Positions 24,233 through 32,536 of a DNA stretch of 32,536 nt are shown here, piece by piece. The stretch spans positions 1 through 32,536 of the forward strand of contig JASJDX010000012.1 in assembly GCA_030064975.1 (NCBI GenBank). Direction: 5' to 3'. Numbering within the stretch: position 1 is the first letter of the stretch; each line of letters starts with the position of its first letter. The notes below the pieces were generated by a model that was not told the DNA's origin, ran no database searches, and worked only from the letters and a program-made list of their open reading frames with translations. This stretch comes from Pleurocapsa sp. MO_192.B19. Its GTDB lineage: Bacteria > Cyanobacteriota > Cyanobacteriia > Cyanobacteriales > Xenococcaceae. A program made the translations under genes and the position numbers.

Positions 24233-25042
24233 ATGACCGAATTAAATAATGCTGTTGTCTTAATCACTGGGGCAGCAGGAGGTTTTGGTCAGGAACTGAC
24301 TAAACAGTTATTGGCCAAGGGAAGCCGTTTAATTCTGACAGATCTCGACCTCAAAATTCTCCAAGAACAAGTTACAAATATACAATCTGAGGTAACTACA
24401 GGAGAAGTAATTCAATGCTTCGAAGCTAATTTAGCGAGTCGGACTGGTTGTCACCATCTCTATCAGCAAGTTAAGACGTTAAATATGCCCCTGGATATTT
24501 TAATTAACAATGCGGGGATTGGCTTATTTGGTCGGATGGATGAAGTTCCCGCAGAGAAATGGGAACAATTGATGGAAGTCAATTTAATGACTCCGATGCG
24601 TTTAAGTTCTTTGTTTGTCGCTGATATGATTGCTCGTCAACAGGGACATATCGTTAATATTTCTTCTTTGGCAGGTTGGATTGCCCCAGCGGGTATGGCT
24701 CACTATTGCACTAGTAAATTTGGTCTTCGGGGTTTTAGTGAAGGTCTGTTTAACGAGGTAAAACCTTATAATATAAAAGTTACAGCGGTTTATCCTTTTT
24801 TTAGCCGTACTCCAATTTTGCAGTCAGCAAGATATGGCACTCTCGCGCAAAATTCTGACGGGTTCAGTAACAAATTTGTCACCGAACCTGGGAAAGTTAT
24901 GGCAAAAGCGATTCAAGGGATTGTTCGCAATCAACTTCATGTGTTTCCCGATCCGATGGCAAACAGCATCCATTTACTCAAACAATATTTTCCTTCATTA
25001 TTAGATTGGATTGGCGATCGCGCTTCGAGACGGGGCGTATAA
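24233..25042 (+). CDS. Short-chain dehydrogenase/reductase
   Basis: This is a classical SDR of 269 residues, a cytosolic NAD(P)-dependent oxidoreductase. The cofactor motif TGAAGGFG lies at residues 12-19, NNAG at 92-95, the catalytic Ser in NISSLAG near 144, and Tyr158 and Lys162 in YCTSK. After the active site it has the PFFSRTPIL region typical of the substrate loop. The substrate cannot be read from the sequence. The flavin monooxygenase gene follows after 92 bp on the same strand, which suggests a functional pair. The biosynthetic genes from 26523 converge on this pair. Confidence 0.92.
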   Translation: MTELNNAVVLITGAAGGFGQELTKQLLAKGSRLILTDLDLKILQEQVTNIQSEVTTGEVIQCFEANLASRTGCHHLYQQVKTLNMPLDILINNAGIGLFGRMDEVPAEKWEQLMEVNLMTPMRLSSLFVADMIARQQGHIVNISSLAGWIAPAGMAHYCTSKFGLRGFSEGLFNEVKPYNIKVTAVYPFFSRTPILQSARYGTLAQNSDGFSNKFVTEPGKVMAKAIQGIVRNQLHVFPDPMANSIHLLKQYFPSLLDWIGDRASRRGV

Positions 25043-25134: not shown

Positions 25135-26505
25135 ATGTATACCTCTGACAACAACCAAAAGACAACTACAACAAGCCACAAGCAATTAATTATCGGGGCT
25201 GGTTTTGTCGGCTTAGGTATAGCTCAGGCTCTCAAAGAAGCTGGTATTGATTACGATCAAGTTGATGCTAGCGATCGTATCGGTGGCAATTGGTATCATG
25301 GGGTATACGAAACAGCCCATATTATCTCTTCCAAGAAAGTTACCCAGTTTGGTAATTTTCCGATGCCAGAGGATTATCCCGATTTTCCCAGTGCGCAAAA
25401 TATGCTGGACTATATTAATTCTTTTGCTACACATTTTGATTTATATCAGCATATTGAATTTAACCTCAAAGTTAACTATGTAAGACCGATAAAAAATAAT
25501 CTCTGGGAAGTAACCTTTGATAACCAAGAGCAACGCATCTACAAAGGTATAGTAATGTGTAATGGTCATCACTGGTGTAAACGGTTTCCAGAATTTGAGG
25601 GAGAATTCAAAGGCAAAATTATTCACTCTAAAGATTACAAACGACCAGAACAACTACGGGGTAAGAAAGTTTTGGTAATTGGTGGTGGTAATTCTGCCTG
25701 TGATATTGCTTCAGAAGCGGCGAGGGTAGCAGCTAAATGTGTTTTGAGTATGCGCGAATCTGTTTGGTTTATTCCCAAAACATTTGCTGGGATACCAGTT
25801 GCCGATTTAAGTATCAAGAAAAAAGGTAGAACTCCTGCATGGTATCAGCGTCTGATGACTTACTTGCTGATCCGCTTGACTTTTGGCAAGCATGAAAATT
25901 ATGGTCTTGCCAAACCTCAGCATCGGATTTTTGAAAAACATCCCACGATCAATAACGAAGTTCCTTACTATATTAAACATGGTCGCATCATTGCCAAGCC
26001 TGGGGTAAGTCGTTTAAACGGTTGGTCAGTAGAATTTACCGATGGTAGCCAGGAAGAATTCGATCTGATTGTTTGTGCCACTGGTTATTATGTAGCCTAT
26101 CCTTTTCTCCCTCCAGAATTACAGCGCGTCCAAGGTTCAGTAGTTCAATGTTACGGCGGGTCTTTCCTGGATGATTATAAGGGATTATATTATGTTGGCT
26201 GGTATCAACCTCGAAGTGGATTAGGGGCAGTTATTACTCCTTTTGCTCCTGTTTTTGCCCGTTACCTTAAACTTCAAGATCAGATTGGCGTGCCTATTGG
26301 CTTAGTTCTCAAAGAAATGGGGCAAAAGATCCCGCCAACCCATCTTATCGATCCTCAGGAAATTTTTGAGGAATTAAGACGTACTAACCTCAACTTTAAT
26401 TCAATTGTCAACAAAGCTACTCAACTGGATACTAAATATCCTAATTTTAGTAATCAGCCTTTAACTGCTGCATCTCATAAAAATCAAGCTGAGTATTCAC
26501 ATTAA
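25135..26505 (+). CDS. Flavin-containing monooxygenase-like protein
   Basis: The 456-residue protein is a class B flavoprotein monooxygenase. The FAD motif GAGFVG is at residues 21-26, followed by the typical GGNWYHGVYE. The FMO fingerprint FxGxxxHxxxYK appears as FKGKIIHSKDYK at 158-169, and the NADPH-binding GGGNSA is at 183-188. The fingerprint favours FMO over Baeyer-Villiger monooxygenases, which end the motif in W[PD]. It should oxygenate a soft nucleophile (N or S) or another small substrate using NADPH and O2. It follows the SDR gene and ends 17 bp before the convergent NRPS-like gene. A tailoring role for that cluster is possible, but a separate metabolic role is equally open. Confidence 0.9.
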   Translation: MYTSDNNQKTTTTSHKQLIIGAGFVGLGIAQALKEAGIDYDQVDASDRIGGNWYHGVYETAHIISSKKVTQFGNFPMPEDYPDFPSAQNMLDYINSFATHFDLYQHIEFNLKVNYVRPIKNNLWEVTFDNQEQRIYKGIVMCNGHHWCKRFPEFEGEFKGKIIHSKDYKRPEQLRGKKVLVIGGGNSACDIASEAARVAAKCVLSMRESVWFIPKTFAGIPVADLSIKKKGRTPAWYQRLMTYLLIRLTFGKHENYGLAKPQHRIFEKHPTINNEVPYYIKHGRIIAKPGVSRLNGWSVEFTDGSQEEFDLIVCATGYYVAYPFLPPELQRVQGSVVQCYGGSFLDDYKGLYYVGWYQPRSGLGAVITPFAPVFARYLKLQDQIGVPIGLVLKEMGQKIPPTHLIDPQEIFEELRRTNLNFNSIVNKATQLDTKYPNFSNQPLTAASHKNQAEYSH

Positions 26506-26522: not shown

Positions 26523-29156
26523 CTAGCCATCCAAACAATCTCTTAACTTAGCAGCTAAAACCCCTACATGAGGTTCTTGATCGATCGTACCGTGACTACC
26601 GCCGATGAAATGGCAATCAATTCCTTCTGTGGCTAATTCCTCCCAACTTGCTTGCTGATCTAGTCTTAAAGTACCGCTAGCAAAAATCGTGATCTTGCCT
26701 GGGTAACTACTTGATGGTGCATAAATCGCTCTTGCTTTCAGGTGACTTTGAAAAACCCGTTGCACATTTGCCATCATTGGATCTGGGGTAGTTGGGCTGG
26801 GTAGAAATCTCGCTTTCAGTTTTCGTAACTGCTGCCGATATCGATATCCAAGGATGGTTAACAGTTGACCACTGCGGCAAAAATAAACAAAACTTTGCCA
26901 ATATTCAGCTAGAGATTTCGCTTTCTTGCTACCATCAGCATTTCTCAACTTTGAGTAGATATTGGGAGGCATTCCACCATCAATCAACGCCAACAGAGCC
27001 ACCTTTTCTCCTTGCTCTGAAAGTTGTCGTGCCATTTCAAAAGCGACAATCCCACCAAAACATCTTCCTCCCAGATAATACGGTCCGACAGGTTGAATCG
27101 TTTGAATTTCCTTGATGTAGTGTGCCGCCATGTCTTCTACCCTTTCATGGGGTTCAGTTTCTCCTTCTAAGCCCAGTGGTTGAGGAACGTAGAAAGGCTG
27201 ATCTGCACCGAGATGATGTACTAAATTGGCAAATCCCAGTAGGCTATTCCCAGCAGGAGGAATACAAAATAAAATTGGACGAGAACTTCCTGGTTGCGGG
27301 GGATTTAACCAAGAACTAGAATTAGTCTCTCCTTCCTCGCTAATTAGCTTGGCTAACTTTTCAATTGTCGGTGCTTCTAACAAGGCAGATAGAGGCAACT
27401 TTTTGCCGAAGGAGTTCTCAATTTCCCCGATTAAGCGAAAGGCAAGTAGGGAACTACCTCCTACCTCAAAAAAGTTATCTTGAAGATGAATTTGTTGGTT
27501 GTCTAAAATTTCTGACCAGAGTTTAGTAAGTCTTAGTTCTAAGGCATTTCTGGGCTTTAGATTGGTCGCTTTAGATTTGGATTGAGATTGATGAGAACCC
27601 GACAAATGATTTGCTTGTTTAGCTCGTAGTTGTTGGCGATCGCGCTTACCTAGCACCAATAAAGTGTCAATTGATTTTGTAGGATCGGCTACAATTTTTT
27701 CCAGCACTGCTTGCCAATGCTCTGCCATTTTTGTGATAGATTCGGCAGAAAATAAATCAGTATTATATTTCCAGACTCCAATTAGTTGCTCTTGACACTC
27801 GGTTAAAGACAGCGACAAATCAAAATCAGCCGTACCGTTATCGACTTCTAATTCTTCAACAGTTAAACCAGATAGAGTTGGTGTAGTCCTATCATTATTT
27901 TGTAGAACAAACATAACTTGGGATAAGGACGTTTGTCCTAAACCGAGATCTTGGACTAACTGTTGCAGGGGAAAATCTTGGTGAGCATAAGCACCAGATA
28001 CAGTTTTACTCACTCGACCTAGTAATTCTTTAAAACTAGGATTGCCAGATAAATCGCTGCGCAAAATCAGGAGATTTACAAAGTAACCCATAAGCTGCTT
28101 GAGTTCTGGGCGATTGCGGTTGGCAATAGGACTACAGACAAACAGGTCATTTTGCTCAGTGTAGACATAGAGCAGAATCTTAAAGGTAGTTAGCAAAGTA
28201 GCAAAAAGAGTTGCCCGCGATTGATAACTAAGCTGTTTTAATTTCTCGGTAAGTGAGGTTGAGAGAGTTAACGTGTAGGTAGAACTTTTACGGGTTGGTA
28301 CTGCTGGCGCTGGATAGTCTGTTGGTAAGGCTAACTCTTGCAGATTTGTGCCCAGTTTATTTTGCCAATATGAATTTAAAGCAGCTAAAAAATCGTTTTG
28401 CAACCACTGGCGTTGCCAAACTGCAAAATCAGCATACTGAATAGATAATTCTGGTAGAGGTGAGGATTCACCCTGAGTAAACGATTCGTACAGTGCAGCT
28501 AATTCTCGCCAAAAAATTCCTTCAGACCAACCATCAAATGCAATATGATGAATGGTTATCAGCAATAGATGTTCTGTCGGCTCAAGCTGAACTACGCAAG
28601 CTCTCAAAAGATATTTGCCAGTAAGATCGAAAGGTTGTCGGGCAACTTCTCGTATAGCTTGCTCGATCGCCGTTTCTCGTTCTGGGGGAGTTAACACTGA
28701 GGGGAGCTGCTTTATCGTTAAACTCCAGTCATCTTCAGTCTCGGTAACGATCTGAACTGGACGACTATCCACGGTAGCCAATTGCGTTCTCAAAGCTTGA
28801 TGGCGACGCAAGATTTCCTGAAAACTTTGTTCTAAGGCAGTAACATCTAGTTGACCTTGCAAACGGAGCGCAAAAGGAATATTGTAAGCCGTATTTCCCG
28901 ACGATAGTTGCTCTAACAGCCAAAGTCTTTCTTGGTTAAAAGATAGAGGTAAATCGCGATCGCGATCGACAGGTACTAAAGGCGGTGCTTGATTTTGTAG
29001 ACCGATAATAATTCTAATTGCTTGCCAAAGATCGTTTGGTGCTGCGACAGATTTAGCCTCGGCTTTAACCTCCGCTGGTTGAGAATGGTTGGCGGTCGTC
29101 TCGTTGTTCTCAGTCTGAGATGGCACGCTAGGCAAAGTGGTTTCGATAGGTTTCAT
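26523..29156 (-). CDS. NRPS-like protein: condensation, carrier and thioesterase domains
   Basis: This 877-residue protein is a terminal nonribosomal peptide synthetase module without an adenylation domain. A polar N-terminal linker (1-60) leads to a condensation domain (about 65-500) with the active site HHIAFDG at 203-209. A carrier domain (about 540-610) has the phosphopantetheine site GGSS, Ser569. A type I thioesterase follows (about 625-877). Its nucleophile motif is GGRCFGG, so Cys699 replaces the usual Ser; Asp726 and His855 are likely triad partners. The carrier must be loaded in trans or receive its acyl group by condensation. It is the last gene of the operon that starts beyond the window edge and follows the ACP gene by 39 bp. 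Two AGTAATA-type heptamers precede its start. Confidence 0.93.
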   Translation of the reverse strand: MKPIETTLPSVPSQTENNETTANHSQPAEVKAEAKSVAAPNDLWQAIRIIIGLQNQAPPLVPVDRDRDLPLSFNQERLWLLEQLSSGNTAYNIPFALRLQGQLDVTALEQSFQEILRRHQALRTQLATVDSRPVQIVTETEDDWSLTIKQLPSVLTPPERETAIEQAIREVARQPFDLTGKYLLRACVVQLEPTEHLLLITIHHIAFDGWSEGIFWRELAALYESFTQGESSPLPELSIQYADFAVWQRQWLQNDFLAALNSYWQNKLGTNLQELALPTDYPAPAVPTRKSSTYTLTLSTSLTEKLKQLSYQSRATLFATLLTTFKILLYVYTEQNDLFVCSPIANRNRPELKQLMGYFVNLLILRSDLSGNPSFKELLGRVSKTVSGAYAHQDFPLQQLVQDLGLGQTSLSQVMFVLQNNDRTTPTLSGLTVEELEVDNGTADFDLSLSLTECQEQLIGVWKYNTDLFSAESITKMAEHWQAVLEKIVADPTKSIDTLLVLGKRDRQQLRAKQANHLSGSHQSQSKSKATNLKPRNALELRLTKLWSEILDNQQIHLQDNFFEVGGSSLLAFRLIGEIENSFGKKLPLSALLEAPTIEKLAKLISEEGETNSSSWLNPPQPGSSRPILFCIPPAGNSLLGFANLVHHLGADQPFYVPQPLGLEGETEPHERVEDMAAHYIKEIQTIQPVGPYYLGGRCFGGIVAFEMARQLSEQGEKVALLALIDGGMPPNIYSKLRNADGSKKAKSLAEYWQSFVYFCRSGQLLTILGYRYRQQLRKLKARFLPSPTTPDPMMANVQRVFQSHLKARAIYAPSSSYPGKITIFASGTLRLDQQASWEELATEGIDCHFIGGSHGTIDQEPHVGVLAAKLRDCLDG

Positions 29157-29160
29157 GGCT

Positions 29161-29174
29161 GATTACTTATTACT
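29161..29174. repeat. Two heptamers before the NRPS-like gene
   Basis: On the minus strand AGTAATA and AGTAATC lie four bases before the ATG at 29156. They are the same unit as the arrays before 20992 and 24233. Confidence 0.5.
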
Positions 29175-29195
29175 AATTTCGTCTGTATGCCGTCT

Positions 29196-29456
29196 TTAAA
29201 TCTCTTGCTTAATTCCTTGTTTTTTCTCAATTAATTCGACGATTTTGGTAACGGTTTGAAAATTATCAAAGCTGATTTCATCAGTCTCAAACTTGACATC
29301 AAAAGCATCTTGCAGGCTGAAAATTAGAGACATAGCATTGATTGAATCTAATCCCAGACTAAAAATATCAGTTTCATCGCCGAGGTTTTGACGCTCGACA
29401 TTGGGTAATAACTCCAAAATTACATTTTGGGTTTTCTGTTTCAATTGTTCGGTCAT
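29196..29456 (-). CDS. Free-standing acyl carrier protein
   Basis: This 86-residue protein is a discrete acyl carrier protein of the secondary-metabolite type. The phosphopantetheine attachment site is LGLDSINAMS with Ser38, preceded by DETDIFSLG, and the four-helix pattern and acidic character fit the family. I chose the ATG at 29456. A TTG at 29477 would add seven residues and has GAAGG six bases upstream, so it is a real alternative. The gene lies between the DAHP synthase and NRPS-like genes on the same strand. It is the natural partner of the AMP-ligase two genes upstream, which would acylate it, and of the condensation domain, which would take the acyl group. Confidence 0.9.
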   Translation of the reverse strand: MTEQLKQKTQNVILELLPNVERQNLGDETDIFSLGLDSINAMSLIFSLQDAFDVKFETDEISFDNFQTVTKIVELIEKKQGIKQEI

Positions 29457-29539
29457 AGTTTTAATTGTGCTTGACAAATTTTACCTTCAAAAATTATGGC
29501 TAATTTCGCCATCTTTACTGTTTAAAGAATTAGCAACTT

Positions 29540-30670
29540 CTAACCTTTTGTAGTTAGGAGATTACGGACGGGTATTCCAGATACTACCGTTCCACAGGCA
29601 TGAATAGTAACGTTTCTGTCTGTATTAAGTCGTTCGTAAGCAGATAAAATAATTTGTTCTGTCTCCTCCCAACCTATGCATCGATCGGTCACGGAAACGC
29701 CATATTTTAATTCTGCTAAATTTTGCGGAATTTTTTGATTCCCTTCAGACAAATTAGATTCCAGCATCATGCCGACTATCGATCGATTGCCGTCGGCGAT
29801 TTGTTGCAAAATATTCTCCAACACCGAAGCCTGTAATTTATGGTCTTTATTAGAATTTCCGTGGCTGCAATCAATGACAATATTCTGGGGTAAATTTAGC
29901 TCTTTTAACTTATGTTCTGCTCTCGTTACCGTTGCTGCATCAAAATTGGACTGGCGATCGCTACCTCGCAAAATAAGATGACCGTAATGATTACCTTTAG
30001 TTTTGAAAGTGCTTACTTGCCCCTGGTGATCGAGTCCGAGAAAATTATGAGGCAACCTGGATGATTGAATGGCATTTAAAGCTACTTGAAAGTTGCCATC
30101 AGTATTGTTTTTAAAACCTACTGGCATAGACAGTCCACTTGCCATCTCCCGATGAGTTTGCGATTCAATGGTTCTTGCGCCAATAGCCGACCAAGAAATT
30201 AACTCGGCTAAATACTGGGGAGTTATGGGATCTAATGCTTCGGTAGCAGCAGGTAAGCCAATTTCGGCAATTTTAATTAGTAAACTACGTGCCCTAAACA
30301 GGCCTTTCTGCATGTTAAAAGAATCATCTAGATCGGGATCGTTAATTAATCCTTTCCAGCCTGTAGTCGTCCTGGGTTTTTCAAAATAAACCCGCATCAC
30401 AACTAACAATTTATCCTTAACTTTTTCAGCCAAGGCTTTTAGCTGATGCGCATAATGTTCCGCAGCATCTGGATCGTGAATCGAACAAGGACCGACAATA
30501 ATAAATTTTCTGGCATCTTTTCCCGCCAGAATATCTTGTAATTCCTGCCTTCCTCGCACGACAGTCTCGATCGCAGTTTCTGTTAGAGGTAATCGATTTT
30601 TGAGTTGAACTGGAGTCAATAAAGCCTTAGAAGATTCAATGTTGACATCTAGTATGGTTTCGAGATTCAT
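29540..30670 (-). CDS. 3-deoxy-7-phosphoheptulonate (DAHP) synthase, class I
   Basis: DAHP synthase joins PEP and erythrose 4-phosphate in the first step of the shikimate pathway. The 376-residue protein is of the AroF/G/H (type I alpha) class. It shows IIVGPCSIHD with metal ligand Cys62, RVYFEKPRTTTGWKGLINDP for PEP and sugar binding, GFKNNTDG, and the later metal ligands in CSHGN, MLESN and VTDRCIGW. The N-terminal arm that carries feedback control in this class is present, so it may still be inhibited by an aromatic amino acid; which one cannot be told. The AMP-ligase gene ends 12 bp upstream, so cotranscription is near certain. Its place inside a biosynthetic operon suggests a dedicated copy that supplies chorismate rather than the housekeeping enzyme. 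Confidence 0.95.
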   Translation of the reverse strand: MNLETILDVNIESSKALLTPVQLKNRLPLTETAIETVVRGRQELQDILAGKDARKFIIVGPCSIHDPDAAEHYAHQLKALAEKVKDKLLVVMRVYFEKPRTTTGWKGLINDPDLDDSFNMQKGLFRARSLLIKIAEIGLPAATEALDPITPQYLAELISWSAIGARTIESQTHREMASGLSMPVGFKNNTDGNFQVALNAIQSSRLPHNFLGLDHQGQVSTFKTKGNHYGHLILRGSDRQSNFDAATVTRAEHKLKELNLPQNIVIDCSHGNSNKDHKLQASVLENILQQIADGNRSIVGMMLESNLSEGNQKIPQNLAELKYGVSVTDRCIGWEETEQIILSAYERLNTDRNVTIHACGTVVSGIPVRNLLTTKG

Positions 30671-30682
30671 AACTGGTTGCTT

Positions 30683-32218
30683 CTAAACTAGAGCTTTACG
30701 GAGAACTTTACCCAGCGGACTTTTGGGGATTTCATCGCGGAATTCAATAATTCTGGGTACCTTGAATTCAGCCAATCTGGCTTTACAGTAGTCGGAAATT
30801 TCTCGTTCTTCACAGGTCTGCGATTCCTGAGGCACGATGACAGCTTTAATTATTTCTCCCGCAAAAAAGCCTTTCACCCCCACGACTACAGCTTCTTTGA
30901 TGTTCGGGTGAGTCAGTAAAACATCTTCTATTTCAATGGGATCGACCTTACGACCTCCCGTATCGATTAATATTTTCTTCCTGCCAGTAATATAAAGACG
31001 ACCCGACTGATCAATTTTTCCCAAATCACCAGTAAAATATGAACCATTGGCAAAGGCTTTTTGATTTAGTTCGGGCATATTGTGATACCCGCTGGTTAGA
31101 GTCTTGCTTTTAATAACTATCTCGCCAACCTCTCCAACAGGCAATTGAGTTCCGCGATCGCTAATAATTTTAATCTCGACATTTTGCATCGGACGACCCA
31201 CCGAACCATAGGGTTTGTCTGCTTCGTCTAAGTCGATCGTCACCGAACCTGCCTCAGTACAACCATAAAGTTGTTTAACACCGATGCCAAATCTTGCCCG
31301 AAATCGCTCAAAGGTATCTTGAGGGAGAAAATTACCAGCAGAGAAACATAATCTTAAAGATGTTAGATCGGCTTGAGTATCCCTAGGTGTTTCCGCCAAA
31401 GTATTAAAGATATAAGGCACTGCGGGCAAAATAGTAATTTGTTCTTGTTCGATCAGTTCTAAAACTCTCAAACGTCTAAAAATAAAGGGAACTTCCATCG
31501 GCGTTCCATTTTGTCGAAACTGTTCTAAGATAACTAACGTCGCACCGTTATGGAGCGAAGCTAGCAAACAATTTCCCAAGCCATGAGCATGGTACATAGG
31601 AACTAAGCACAAAATCTTGTCTGACTCAGTGATGTTGGCGGTTTGAGTAAAATTATTTACCTCGTGGTATAAATTCTGTTGAGTTCTGCCGACTCTTTTG
31701 GGTCTGCCTGTAGAACCAGAAGAATATTGATACAAGAAATTTTCCTGAGCCAAAGCGATCTCGTCTTCGGTTTCGGCTGCGGTTTCTTCTGGCAGGATTA
31801 AATCGTAAAAATAGGTTGAGGAGGGAACGGCTGCGTCAACTGTAATTAACTCGATTTTTCGCTCCGATTTTGAGATAATTTGCTGGCAAAGCTCCGCTCT
31901 GGTAGTGTCGGTAATAACTACTTTGGCATCACTGTCATTGATATAGTAACCAAGCTCCTCTTCCTTAAACAGATGGTTTAGGGGCAAGAAAACAGCATTT
32001 AGTTTGGCAGCAGCATAAAAGCTAATTACAAATTCGGTGCAGTTGGGCAAAACTACGGCAATACAGTCAGCACGACGGACTCCTAAAGAACGAAGACCGT
32101 TACTAAATCCTCTAACTAGATCCTGTAGCTCTTGATAAGTGATATTTGAGCGATCATCAACAATAGCAGTCTTTTCTGGATATTTTTGAGCAATCTTAAC
32201 TAAATTTTGTTCTAGCAT
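30683..32218 (-). CDS. AMP-dependent acyl/aryl ligase (ANL superfamily)
   Basis: This 511-residue adenylating enzyme activates a carboxylic acid as an acyl-AMP and transfers it to a thiol. The P-loop SSGSTGRPK lies at residues 166-174, YGCTEAG at 318-324, FTGDLG near 396, the hinge region GRKKILIDTGGRKVDPIEIE after it, and the catalytic C-terminal Lys504 in PKSPLGKVLRKAL. The protein is complete. I prefer the ATG at 32218 because GAGG lies six bases upstream; the ATG at 32230 would add four residues and lacks such a site. With an ACP gene in the same operon and chorismate-related enzymes on both sides, I infer that it loads an aromatic acid such as 4-hydroxybenzoate on the ACP. A CoA-ligase or fatty-acid role cannot be excluded. 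Confidence 0.92.
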   Translation of the reverse strand: MLEQNLVKIAQKYPEKTAIVDDRSNITYQELQDLVRGFSNGLRSLGVRRADCIAVVLPNCTEFVISFYAAAKLNAVFLPLNHLFKEEELGYYINDSDAKVVITDTTRAELCQQIISKSERKIELITVDAAVPSSTYFYDLILPEETAAETEDEIALAQENFLYQYSSGSTGRPKRVGRTQQNLYHEVNNFTQTANITESDKILCLVPMYHAHGLGNCLLASLHNGATLVILEQFRQNGTPMEVPFIFRRLRVLELIEQEQITILPAVPYIFNTLAETPRDTQADLTSLRLCFSAGNFLPQDTFERFRARFGIGVKQLYGCTEAGSVTIDLDEADKPYGSVGRPMQNVEIKIISDRGTQLPVGEVGEIVIKSKTLTSGYHNMPELNQKAFANGSYFTGDLGKIDQSGRLYITGRKKILIDTGGRKVDPIEIEDVLLTHPNIKEAVVVGVKGFFAGEIIKAVIVPQESQTCEEREISDYCKARLAEFKVPRIIEFRDEIPKSPLGKVLRKALV

Positions 32219-32393
32219 ATCTAACCTCATGAAGAGAACAATGGGTTTTACTATTTGATTTCAGTGATCGGCTTTTTTAGTTGAGAGGAAGCGCAGTAAG
32301 GAGTCGCGCAGAGTAAATCAAGTCCCTCTGCCAATTTTTCTCGTTCTTTTGCCTTGTTAAAAGAAAATTATTTGCTTTATATTGCCACTGAAT

Positions 32394-32536
32394 TTAAAAC
32401 CCTGCTTGAAAATAACTGGCAGGGAATTTTTCAGTAATCGTCATAATCGGCTGGCGTTGAGAAAAAACACGATATGTACGAGAAAAAACCTTGTCTTCTG
32501 GTTGAAGCGGAAAATAAGCTAATAGTTTATCTGCAG
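32394..32536 (-). CDS. C-terminal fragment of a chorismate-lyase-like protein
   Basis: The minus strand is open from the window edge to a TAA at 32394-32396 and encodes the last 46 residues of a protein. The segment FSRTYRVFSQRQPIMTITEK followed by FPASYF resembles the C-terminal end of the chorismate lyase family (DUF98 / UbiC-like), where an R-x-Y pair, a polar turn and an IxE-x-FP motif occur. These enzymes release pyruvate from chorismate to give 4-hydroxybenzoate. The assignment is from memory of the family pattern on a short fragment, so it is tentative. It would be the gene before the AMP-ligase; the 175-bp gap between them may hold a promoter, but none was recognised. Confidence 0.55.
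   Translation of the reverse strand, partial: ADKLLAYFPLQPEDKVFSRTYRVFSQRQPIMTITEKFPASYFQAGF

Follow-up and report, generated by a model that had tools for sequence, protein, structure and literature searches.

The window analysed here is the entire contig C225 (32,536 nucleotides) of the cyanobacterium Pleurocapsa sp. MO_192.B19, genome G000 of our set, whose assembly of 6.79 Mb comprises 606 contigs and is 82% complete. Between positions 26523 and 32536 the window carries five genes, all on the minus strand according to the open reading frame list and domain searches. They encode the C-terminus of a chorismate lyase, an aryl AMP-ligase, a 3-deoxy-D-arabino-heptulosonate 7-phosphate (DAHP) synthase, a free acyl carrier protein (ACP) and a protein in which a condensation (C) domain, a peptidyl carrier protein (PCP) and a thioesterase (TE) are joined, here written C-PCP-TE (Table 1). 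A first-pass annotation had read this set from the letters, and both the frames and the domain matches agree with it. Its gaps of 12, 83 and 39 bp between the last four genes are right by coordinates, with the ATG at 29456 as the ACP start that fits the 83-bp gap and a TTG at 29477 as a possible alternative. Its description of the operon as similar to a non-ribosomal peptide synthetase (NRPS) holds for the domain make-up, but an amino-acid-activating adenylation (A) domain was not found in the operon.

Table 1. Genes of the operon, in the order of transcription.
Feature	Position	Strand	Evidence
Chorismate lyase (Rv2949c-like), C-terminal 46 residues and stop	32394..32534	-	frame; identity to the lyase of contig C265
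Aryl AMP-ligase, stand-alone adenylation enzyme, 515 aa	30683..32230	-	AMP-binding E 2.5e-88; HAHGLGN at residues 214-220
DAHP synthase, AroFGH type, 376 aa	29540..30670	-	E 9.2e-87; NCBIfam aroFGH
Free ACP	29196..29456	-	PP-binding E 6e-11; motif LGLDSIN
C-PCP-TE, 877 aa	26523..29156	-	Condensation E 2.3e-105; PP-binding 2.6e-14; Thioesterase 1e-26

The lyase frame is open from position 32534 to its stop and the remainder of the gene lies past the contig end; the missing N-terminus was not found on other contigs of the genome. That the flanking gene is a chorismate lyase, as had been proposed, follows from a complete homologue on contig C265 of the same genome, which is 78% identical to the 46-residue tail and matches PF01947 (Rv2949c-like chorismate pyruvate-lyase) with an E-value of 5.4e-20, above the family cut-off; its match to the cyanobacterial lyase model of NCBIfam stays under the cut-off. 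At its 3' end the operon stops with the C-PCP-TE gene. The next genes, for a flavin-dependent monooxygenase (FMO, 25135-26505, convergent) and a short-chain dehydrogenase/reductase (SDR, 24233-25042), lie on the opposite strand and were rejected as cluster members, the FMO having no close homologue in the other tabulated loci and the SDR only 26-32% identity to proteins of two of them. Elsewhere the genome encodes two more DAHP synthases of the AroFGH type, which share 51-52% identity with the copy on C265.

With a presence limit of E 1e-100 or better, a ligase of the window's clade occurs in 4 of 386 genomes drawn from the phylum, 26 of 388 drawn from the order and 6 of 27 of the family, the window's own genome being counted in each draw; the draws differ, and so do the profiles, with two rows (A1) for the phylum and four rows (A2) for the order. 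No match was obtained among plasmid records at E 1e-90. A scan of named genomes gave 56 ligase loci, of which 18 (L024-L041) are at least 45% identical by best segment and the others at most 33%. From these searches 35 loci were tabulated, including the window and C265 and leaving out second copies of the same contig; by matching places they cover all 26 genomes of the order draw. The five genes are found together in 14 of the 34 other tabulated loci, and the same five stand in the same order in genome G405 of the same genus, where the four complete genes are 84-88% identical at the protein level to those of the window. As the set recurs in this way and keeps its order in G405, we consider that its grouping is not due to chance. 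The exact order is also found in G395, G623 and G634. In the latter two a halogenase follows, which we take to be the order ab5-ab10 of the ambigol cluster of Fischerella ambigua 108b and Symphyonema bifilamentata. In that cluster, Kresna et al. (2021) are said to have assigned ab5-ab9 to chorismate lyase, stand-alone A domain, DAHP synthase, ACP and C-PCP-TE, and ab10, the last gene, reportedly encodes a halogenase.

The tabulated loci fall into several kinds. Ten are linked to a halogenase (L019, L020, L026, L027, L029, L030, L031, L125, L126, L134) and mostly hold a DAHP synthase, a PobA-like hydroxylase and a cupin protein (each in 9/10), and in five cases a glutathione S-transferase (GST). 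Seven are chorismatase loci, four of them with a luciferase-like monooxygenase and two with the chorismatase fused to the ligase; these single-protein fusions are found in L021 (9001-11529, minus strand) and L035 (9011-11521), with the luciferase-like monooxygenase adjoining. A third kind is free of halogenases and holds sugar genes (L117, which is the G405 locus, L024, L119, L123, L025, L128, L132 and C265), and the window is assigned to it by orthology to L117. In the remaining kind the ligase lies beside NRPS-size proteins or a gene of the carnitine acyltransferase family. The latter is the choline/carnitine O-acyltransferase family gene of L124 (6841-11459) and L034 (3459-20726); L124 also encodes a sulfotransferase and an ACP, and L034 a pair of proteins that combine chorismate-binding and glutamine-amidotransferase domains; aryl choline-type esters are a possible product. 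The ambigol-type aryl-loading core is a recurrent cyanobacterial module with varied settings: halogenase loci, sulfated sugar-coat loci, loci with NRPS-size proteins, and loci where a chorismatase is accompanied by a luciferase-like monooxygenase.

The sequence of the ligase follows the source of the aryl acid. When 34 ligases are placed in a tree, none of the nine that are linked to a chorismatase falls into a group of 21 (support 88/83, moderate), which contains all 18 ligases from loci with a lyase and without a chorismatase; the lyase class consists of these 18, whose lyase lies in the stretch read, and of L124, L127 and L129, which are placed by the tree. At 85% conservation within each class, the two sets of 9 and 21 ligases differ in nine alignment columns, with the ligase of L034 and three outgroups left out of the comparison. 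Three of them (216, 218 and 220) fall in one seven-residue motif, which reads HAHGLGN in the lyase class, as in the window, and HAYGFGE in the chorismatase class, as in C265. Exceptions are L128 and L132 (HAYGLGT), L033 (V at 220), L035 (L at 218) and a few ligases with S at residue 215. From the alignment with DhbE these positions presumably line the acyl pocket. We read the two motifs as a putative specificity for 4- and 3-hydroxybenzoate, respectively, a residue code that is testable. The window's ligase is predicted to activate 4-hydroxybenzoate and to load it onto the ACP, and the shift of the motif with the aryl source would speak against a preference of this enzyme for fatty acids and CoA.

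The cluster on C265 (L009) is paralogous to that of the window and contains a DRL-family oxidoreductase gene cut by the contig end, an SGNH/RTX protein, a Hyg5-like chorismatase, ligase, ACP, the complete lyase, DAHP synthase and a partial C-PCP-TE. Identities to the window are 60% for the ligase, 62% over 77 residues for the ACP and 84% for the DAHP synthase; of the C-PCP-TE only the first 347 residues are present, 75% identical over 327. An exact repeat of 89 nt (window 28174-28262, L009 8836-8924) lies at the very end of C265, and as the contig ends directly after it, the assembly apparently broke within a stretch common to both C-PCP-TE genes. It is consequently not certain that the part of the window's C-PCP-TE gene 3' of about 28174 belongs to this copy. 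Over this part the window shares 83-87% identity with G405 and 81-87% with G400, both of which carry a cysteine thioesterase, and these values do not decide the assignment. The chorismatase of C265 aligns better with structure entry 5ag3, which we take to be Hyg5, than with FkbO. Counted along the 5ag3 alignment, it keeps Gly-240 (the G in SGTAS), Cys-327 (Cys320 in the query) and Glu-334 (Glu327) of Hyg5, the comparison covering these three residues; its match to the NCBIfam chorismatase model is under the cut-off. Glycine and cysteine are described as subfamily residues and the glutamate as catalytic in Hyg5-type (CH-II) chorismatases (PMC7170507). Although a chorismatase product is said not to be settled by sequence alone (PMC3949708), the better match to 5ag3 and the conserved residues make 3-hydroxybenzoate the likely product of the C265 enzyme. 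Contig C211 of the same genome holds an apiosidase-like fragment, two BNR proteins, a sulfotransferase, an NTP (nucleoside triphosphate) transferase and the start of an RmlC gene, and its content is consistent with a run-on into C265. A further chorismate lyase cluster lies on contig C12 (L018, 3317-14833), with genes for an FMO, a cytochrome P450, lyase, TauE, a second-type DAHP synthase, a GST, an FAD-dependent aromatic hydroxylase and a cupin/RTX/GDSL protein. In its accessory genes it is similar to the halogenase loci, and a ligase or a halogenase of that type was not seen there.

The C-PCP-TE protein, in turn, follows the genomic context. All ten halogenase-linked copies form one clade (100/100), and the copies of the window, G405, C265, G400 and G395 form another (100/100), even though C265 and G400 differ from the window in ligase class. 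The halogenase-linked copies all have HHxxxDA or HHxxxDF in the C domain and a serine nucleophile in the thioesterase motif GGNSMGG. The window's clade has HHI[AV]FDG in five of five copies and GGRCFGG, with a cysteine nucleophile, in all four complete ones; the window's own protein reads HHIAFDG (C domain), GGSS (PCP) and GGRCFGG (TE), with aspartate and histidine in the canonical places. As HHxxFDG also occurs in L025, L128, L032 and L033, it is the halogenase-linked type that is the odd one at the C domain. A cysteine at the nucleophile place is absent from the complete copies outside the window's clade, and L025, from the same family, has a serine. In L028 (15596-18223) and L035 (13327-16047) the nucleophile and the catalytic histidine are apparently both lost, and in the C domains of L028 and L130 HQ replaces HH. 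In a structural model of the window's thioesterase (mean predicted local distance difference test score 79, predicted template modelling score 0.76) the cysteine lies between a strand and a helix, in the nucleophile elbow, with the aspartate after the next strand and the histidine in a later loop. The closest folds are thioesterases of NRPS, polyketide synthases and fatty-acid synthases including Pks13, a weak hint since many thioesterases score alike. Pks13 passes its acyl chain to trehalose.

The upstream side that is lost from the window can be seen in G405, where genes for two BNR proteins, a sulfotransferase, RmlC, the DRL oxidoreductase and an SGNH/GDSL protein with RTX repeats precede the five-gene run on the same strand; the SGNH/RTX gene lies directly 5' of the lyase, where the window's contig stops. 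Further upstream follow apiosidase-like, hexapeptide transferase, branching-enzyme-like, polysaccharide-lyase-like and epimerase-like proteins, an L-2-hydroxyglutarate-oxidase-family protein, glucose-1-phosphate cytidylyltransferase (RfbF), PssD, a HepA-family ABC transporter, three more sulfotransferases, glycosyltransferases and a PssE-like protein under the cut-off. The G405 locus contains the exopolysaccharide gene set of sulfotransferases, glycosyltransferases, nucleotide-sugar genes and exporter, and the window's contig ends before that side; in the window's own genome, C211 supplies the sulfotransferase, NTP transferase and RmlC start and C265 the DRL and SGNH genes, with no exporter among the genes read. 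In two arrangements other than that of G405, the cassette accompanies RmlC, DRL and SGNH in G400, where a chorismatase version of it follows NTP transferase, RmlC, DRL and SGNH genes, and in G395, where it lies between a sulfotransferase and RmlC. The DRL-family oxidoreductase (L117 8563-9885, minus strand, and orthologues) is tied to RmlC, and its closest solved sequences are 3upl and 3upy. Together with RmlC, and with the apiosidase-like gene further upstream in G405, it possibly serves the synthesis of an unusual branched sugar.

Among the seven other loci with a lyase and with neither chorismatase nor halogenase, six (L117, L024, L123, L025, L128, L132) are flanked by polysaccharide genes, a context that recurs in families f1 and f3 of the genome set, and the seventh, L131, is a 9-kb contig without flanks; L025, L128 and L132 have other polysaccharide genes than G405, and L024 has a sulfotransferase and a BNR protein. 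Five of the 27 family genomes hold DRL, the same five hold SGNH, and four of these are among the six with the ligase (P = 0.004, hypergeometric, kinship uncorrected). As a control, flanking proteins that are not part of the cassette and measure 150-1299 aa were assigned to families. The 17 halogenase and chorismatase loci contributed 69 such proteins, all from 15 loci since L029 and L134 yielded none, and seven sugar-associated loci contributed 51, with the window's own 19 and L009 left out. The 25 commonest of 140 families in the control flanks include no glycan family, and the 25 commonest of 83 at the sugar-associated loci include glycosyltransferases, sulfotransferases, RmlC, polysaccharide pyruvyl transferase and polysaccharide lyase. 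The latter group was drawn up after its contexts had been seen, and includes L119 (lyase and chorismatase) for its sugar genes, and thus cannot serve as an independent label; what differs is the density of sugar genes and not their presence or absence. Cyanobacterial sulfotransferase genes are said to lie mostly in putative exopolysaccharide clusters (PMC8205485).

Taken together, we propose, with a probability of about one in two, that the operon is an ambigol-type cassette for the loading and release of 4-hydroxybenzoyl groups that serves a sulfated exopolysaccharide locus. Family, order and phylogeny support well that 4-hydroxybenzoate would be made, activated and loaded onto a carrier, and the route suggested by the first-pass annotation, from chorismate via 4-hydroxybenzoate and aryl-ACP to release by the C-PCP-TE with a dedicated DAHP synthase, is supported as chemistry predicted from sequence. 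The extra DAHP synthase would raise the shikimate flux, the lyase would convert chorismate to 4-hydroxybenzoate, and the ligase would adenylate this acid and load the ACP; the C domain may then move the aryl group to the PCP, from which the cysteine thioesterase would release it, probably acting more as an acyltransferase than as a hydrolase. Loading onto a carrier makes sense where a halogenase is present, since Ab10 reportedly acts on the carrier-bound acid. A thioester made only to be hydrolyzed would be futile without a halogenase, and transfer to an acceptor is thus the simplest reading. Recurrent sugar context and cysteine thioesterase point to a sugar hydroxyl, and most likely the aryl group is passed to a sugar, or else to some other exported acceptor with a hydroxyl. 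Gene content and order, conservation, the splits in motifs and trees and the neighbourhoods are observed here, and from them we infer the substrates, the transfer step and the acceptor. Cysteine thioesterases are called less common in the papers on ObiF and SulM, and in the ObiF paper a thioester acyl-enzyme is credited with better reactivity with a hydroxyl (PMC6668435, PMC11298585).

Several observations weigh against this proposal. None of the genes encodes a proven sugar acyltransferase; besides the cysteine thioesterase the candidates for aroyl transfer to a sugar include two hexapeptide-repeat transferases in the G405 locus, which could acylate sugars without the thioesterase, and an Acyl_transf_3 protein in L025. 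The window's own upstream side lies off the contig. G394, from the same family and with polysaccharide context, has a serine thioesterase, and G393 has a sugar locus with DRL, SGNH and RmlC but no cassette ligase, so that the sugar genes do not depend on the cassette and the latter is better seen as an add-on. Carbohydrate genes also occur singly at control loci, as found among ten chosen proteins (a WecG glycosyltransferase in L036, a GH57 glucan branching enzyme in L030), L027 and L134 hold glycosyltransferase fragments below the size limit, and in L028 (lyase and chorismatase) no flank protein was recognised as a sugar gene, with only one looked up individually. We regard as unlikely the more specific picture, its odds slightly lowered by the control-locus carbohydrate genes and the rival hexapeptide transferases, of a sulfated exopolysaccharide decorated with hydroxybenzoyl groups, in which the cassette would be present twice in the one genome (with a 4-hydroxybenzoate source in the window and a 3-hydroxybenzoate source on C265), the cysteine thioesterase would be the sugar acyltransferase and the secreted GDSL/RTX esterase would trim the ester outside the cell. 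If true, this would be a bacterial counterpart of the ferulate or hydroxybenzoate esters in plant walls; as a speculation, such groups could alter how the sheath absorbs UV light, adheres or is cross-linked by oxidation. The findings make the question whether bacteria esterify exopolysaccharide with aromatic acids directly testable. For Xanthomonas oryzae, the title of a paper links hydroxybenzoates to exopolysaccharide. The literature matches listed held no report of a hydroxybenzoylated exopolysaccharide or of this cluster, which does not prove absence, as most subscription papers lay outside the search.

Other explanations have to be weighed against transfer to an exported acceptor. The operon shares its gene order with L125 and L126, in which a halogenase adjoins the C-PCP-TE gene, and in an incomplete genome its contig is cut at the lyase, which leaves room for an ambigol-like halophenol cluster with the halogenase on the missing upstream side or elsewhere. 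We consider this quite improbable, as the C and TE motifs of the window differ from the halogenase-linked type and no halogenase of that type lies in the window, C265, C211 or the stretches read of G405, G400 and G395; the window's 3' side with its convergent FMO and the 5' side of G405 are both free of one, the 3' side of G405 being cut at a contig end. Elsewhere in the window's genome, 82% complete, PF04820 matches on contigs C128, C62, C144 and C490 were followed up as partners and rejected, since the proteins on these contigs share only 23-26% identity with the halogenases from the ten halogenase-linked loci. A cassette that only frees 4-hydroxybenzoate as signal, chelator or quinone precursor, and that lies in the sugar locus by chance, would fit with its varying place there and with Ab9, which reportedly releases free 3-chloro-4-hydroxybenzoate. 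Since the lyase alone would suffice for this, and the polysaccharide context recurs in both f1 and f3, such a role seems improbable.

A diffusible small aryl ester or amide, not bound to the polysaccharide, is the likeliest of the rival readings, even if we think it rather unlikely. Here the C domain, which keeps HHxxxDG, would join the aryl group to an amine, an alcohol or a second hydroxybenzoate before release by the thioesterase, and the putative 3- and 4-hydroxybenzoate sources beside one ligase in C265 and G400 would suit such a product; however, neither an amino-acid A domain nor an obvious acceptor-forming gene was recognised in the operon or in the stretches read of G405, G400 and G395. 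The aryl-ACP could finally prime a polyketide or NRPS assembly line whose genes lie elsewhere, as suggested by ligases that head large multidomain proteins (L037-L039) or lie beside NRPS-size proteins (L127, L129, L131). This we hold to be very improbable, as the operon of the window's clade ends in a C-PCP-TE of 867-878 aa, and no further ligase or A-domain match lies beside it in L117, L119 and L123.

Compared with known systems, the thioesterase shares its cysteine nucleophile with the NRPS thioesterases of ObiF, SulM and AB3403 (PMC6668435, PMC11298585). The triad aspartate is in the usual NRPS place, as in AB3403 but in contrast to ObiF and SulM; the motif GGRCFGG is a further difference, and an aryl instead of a peptide substrate is expected. 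As in the sulfated exopolysaccharide loci xss and synechan, sulfotransferases lie together with glycosyltransferases, but those loci have a Wzx/Wzy system instead of the HepA-family exporter of G405, and in the main text of that paper the words 'aromatic' and 'benzo' are absent (PMC8205485). In the loading step for xanthomonadin and arcuflavin a chorismate-derived hydroxybenzoate is likewise activated by an AMP-ligase (XanB2/ArcB chorismatase, ArcT ligase); the window differs by its lyase in place of a chorismatase and has no recognisable polyene ketosynthase beside it, and C265 is, through its chorismatase, the closer analogue (PMC3949708).

The halogenase-linked relatives share the core of lyase, ligase, ACP and C-PCP-TE with the window, and differ by their halogenase, PobA-like hydroxylase, cupin protein and GST and by the separate clade and motifs of their C-PCP-TE. 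The ambigol genes ab5-ab9 are reportedly the same five in the same order, a likeness of gene content and order and not of aligned sequences, so that the earlier view that the enzyme set differs from that of the ambigols was mistaken. The ambigol cluster reportedly also encodes the halogenase Ab1 and two P450 enzymes, Ab2 and Ab3, for biaryl coupling. Neither an Ab1-type or Ab10-type halogenase nor a P450 was seen in the window, and no match to the P450 of C12 was found in the 35 tabulated loci, G405 included, the genome as a whole not having been searched for P450s. The differences from the ambigols thus lie in the lack of halogenase and P450s and in the polysaccharide neighbours seen in the relatives. 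Because the halogenase and P450s are not there, the operon is by membership not an ambigol cluster, but it works like the building-block half of one.

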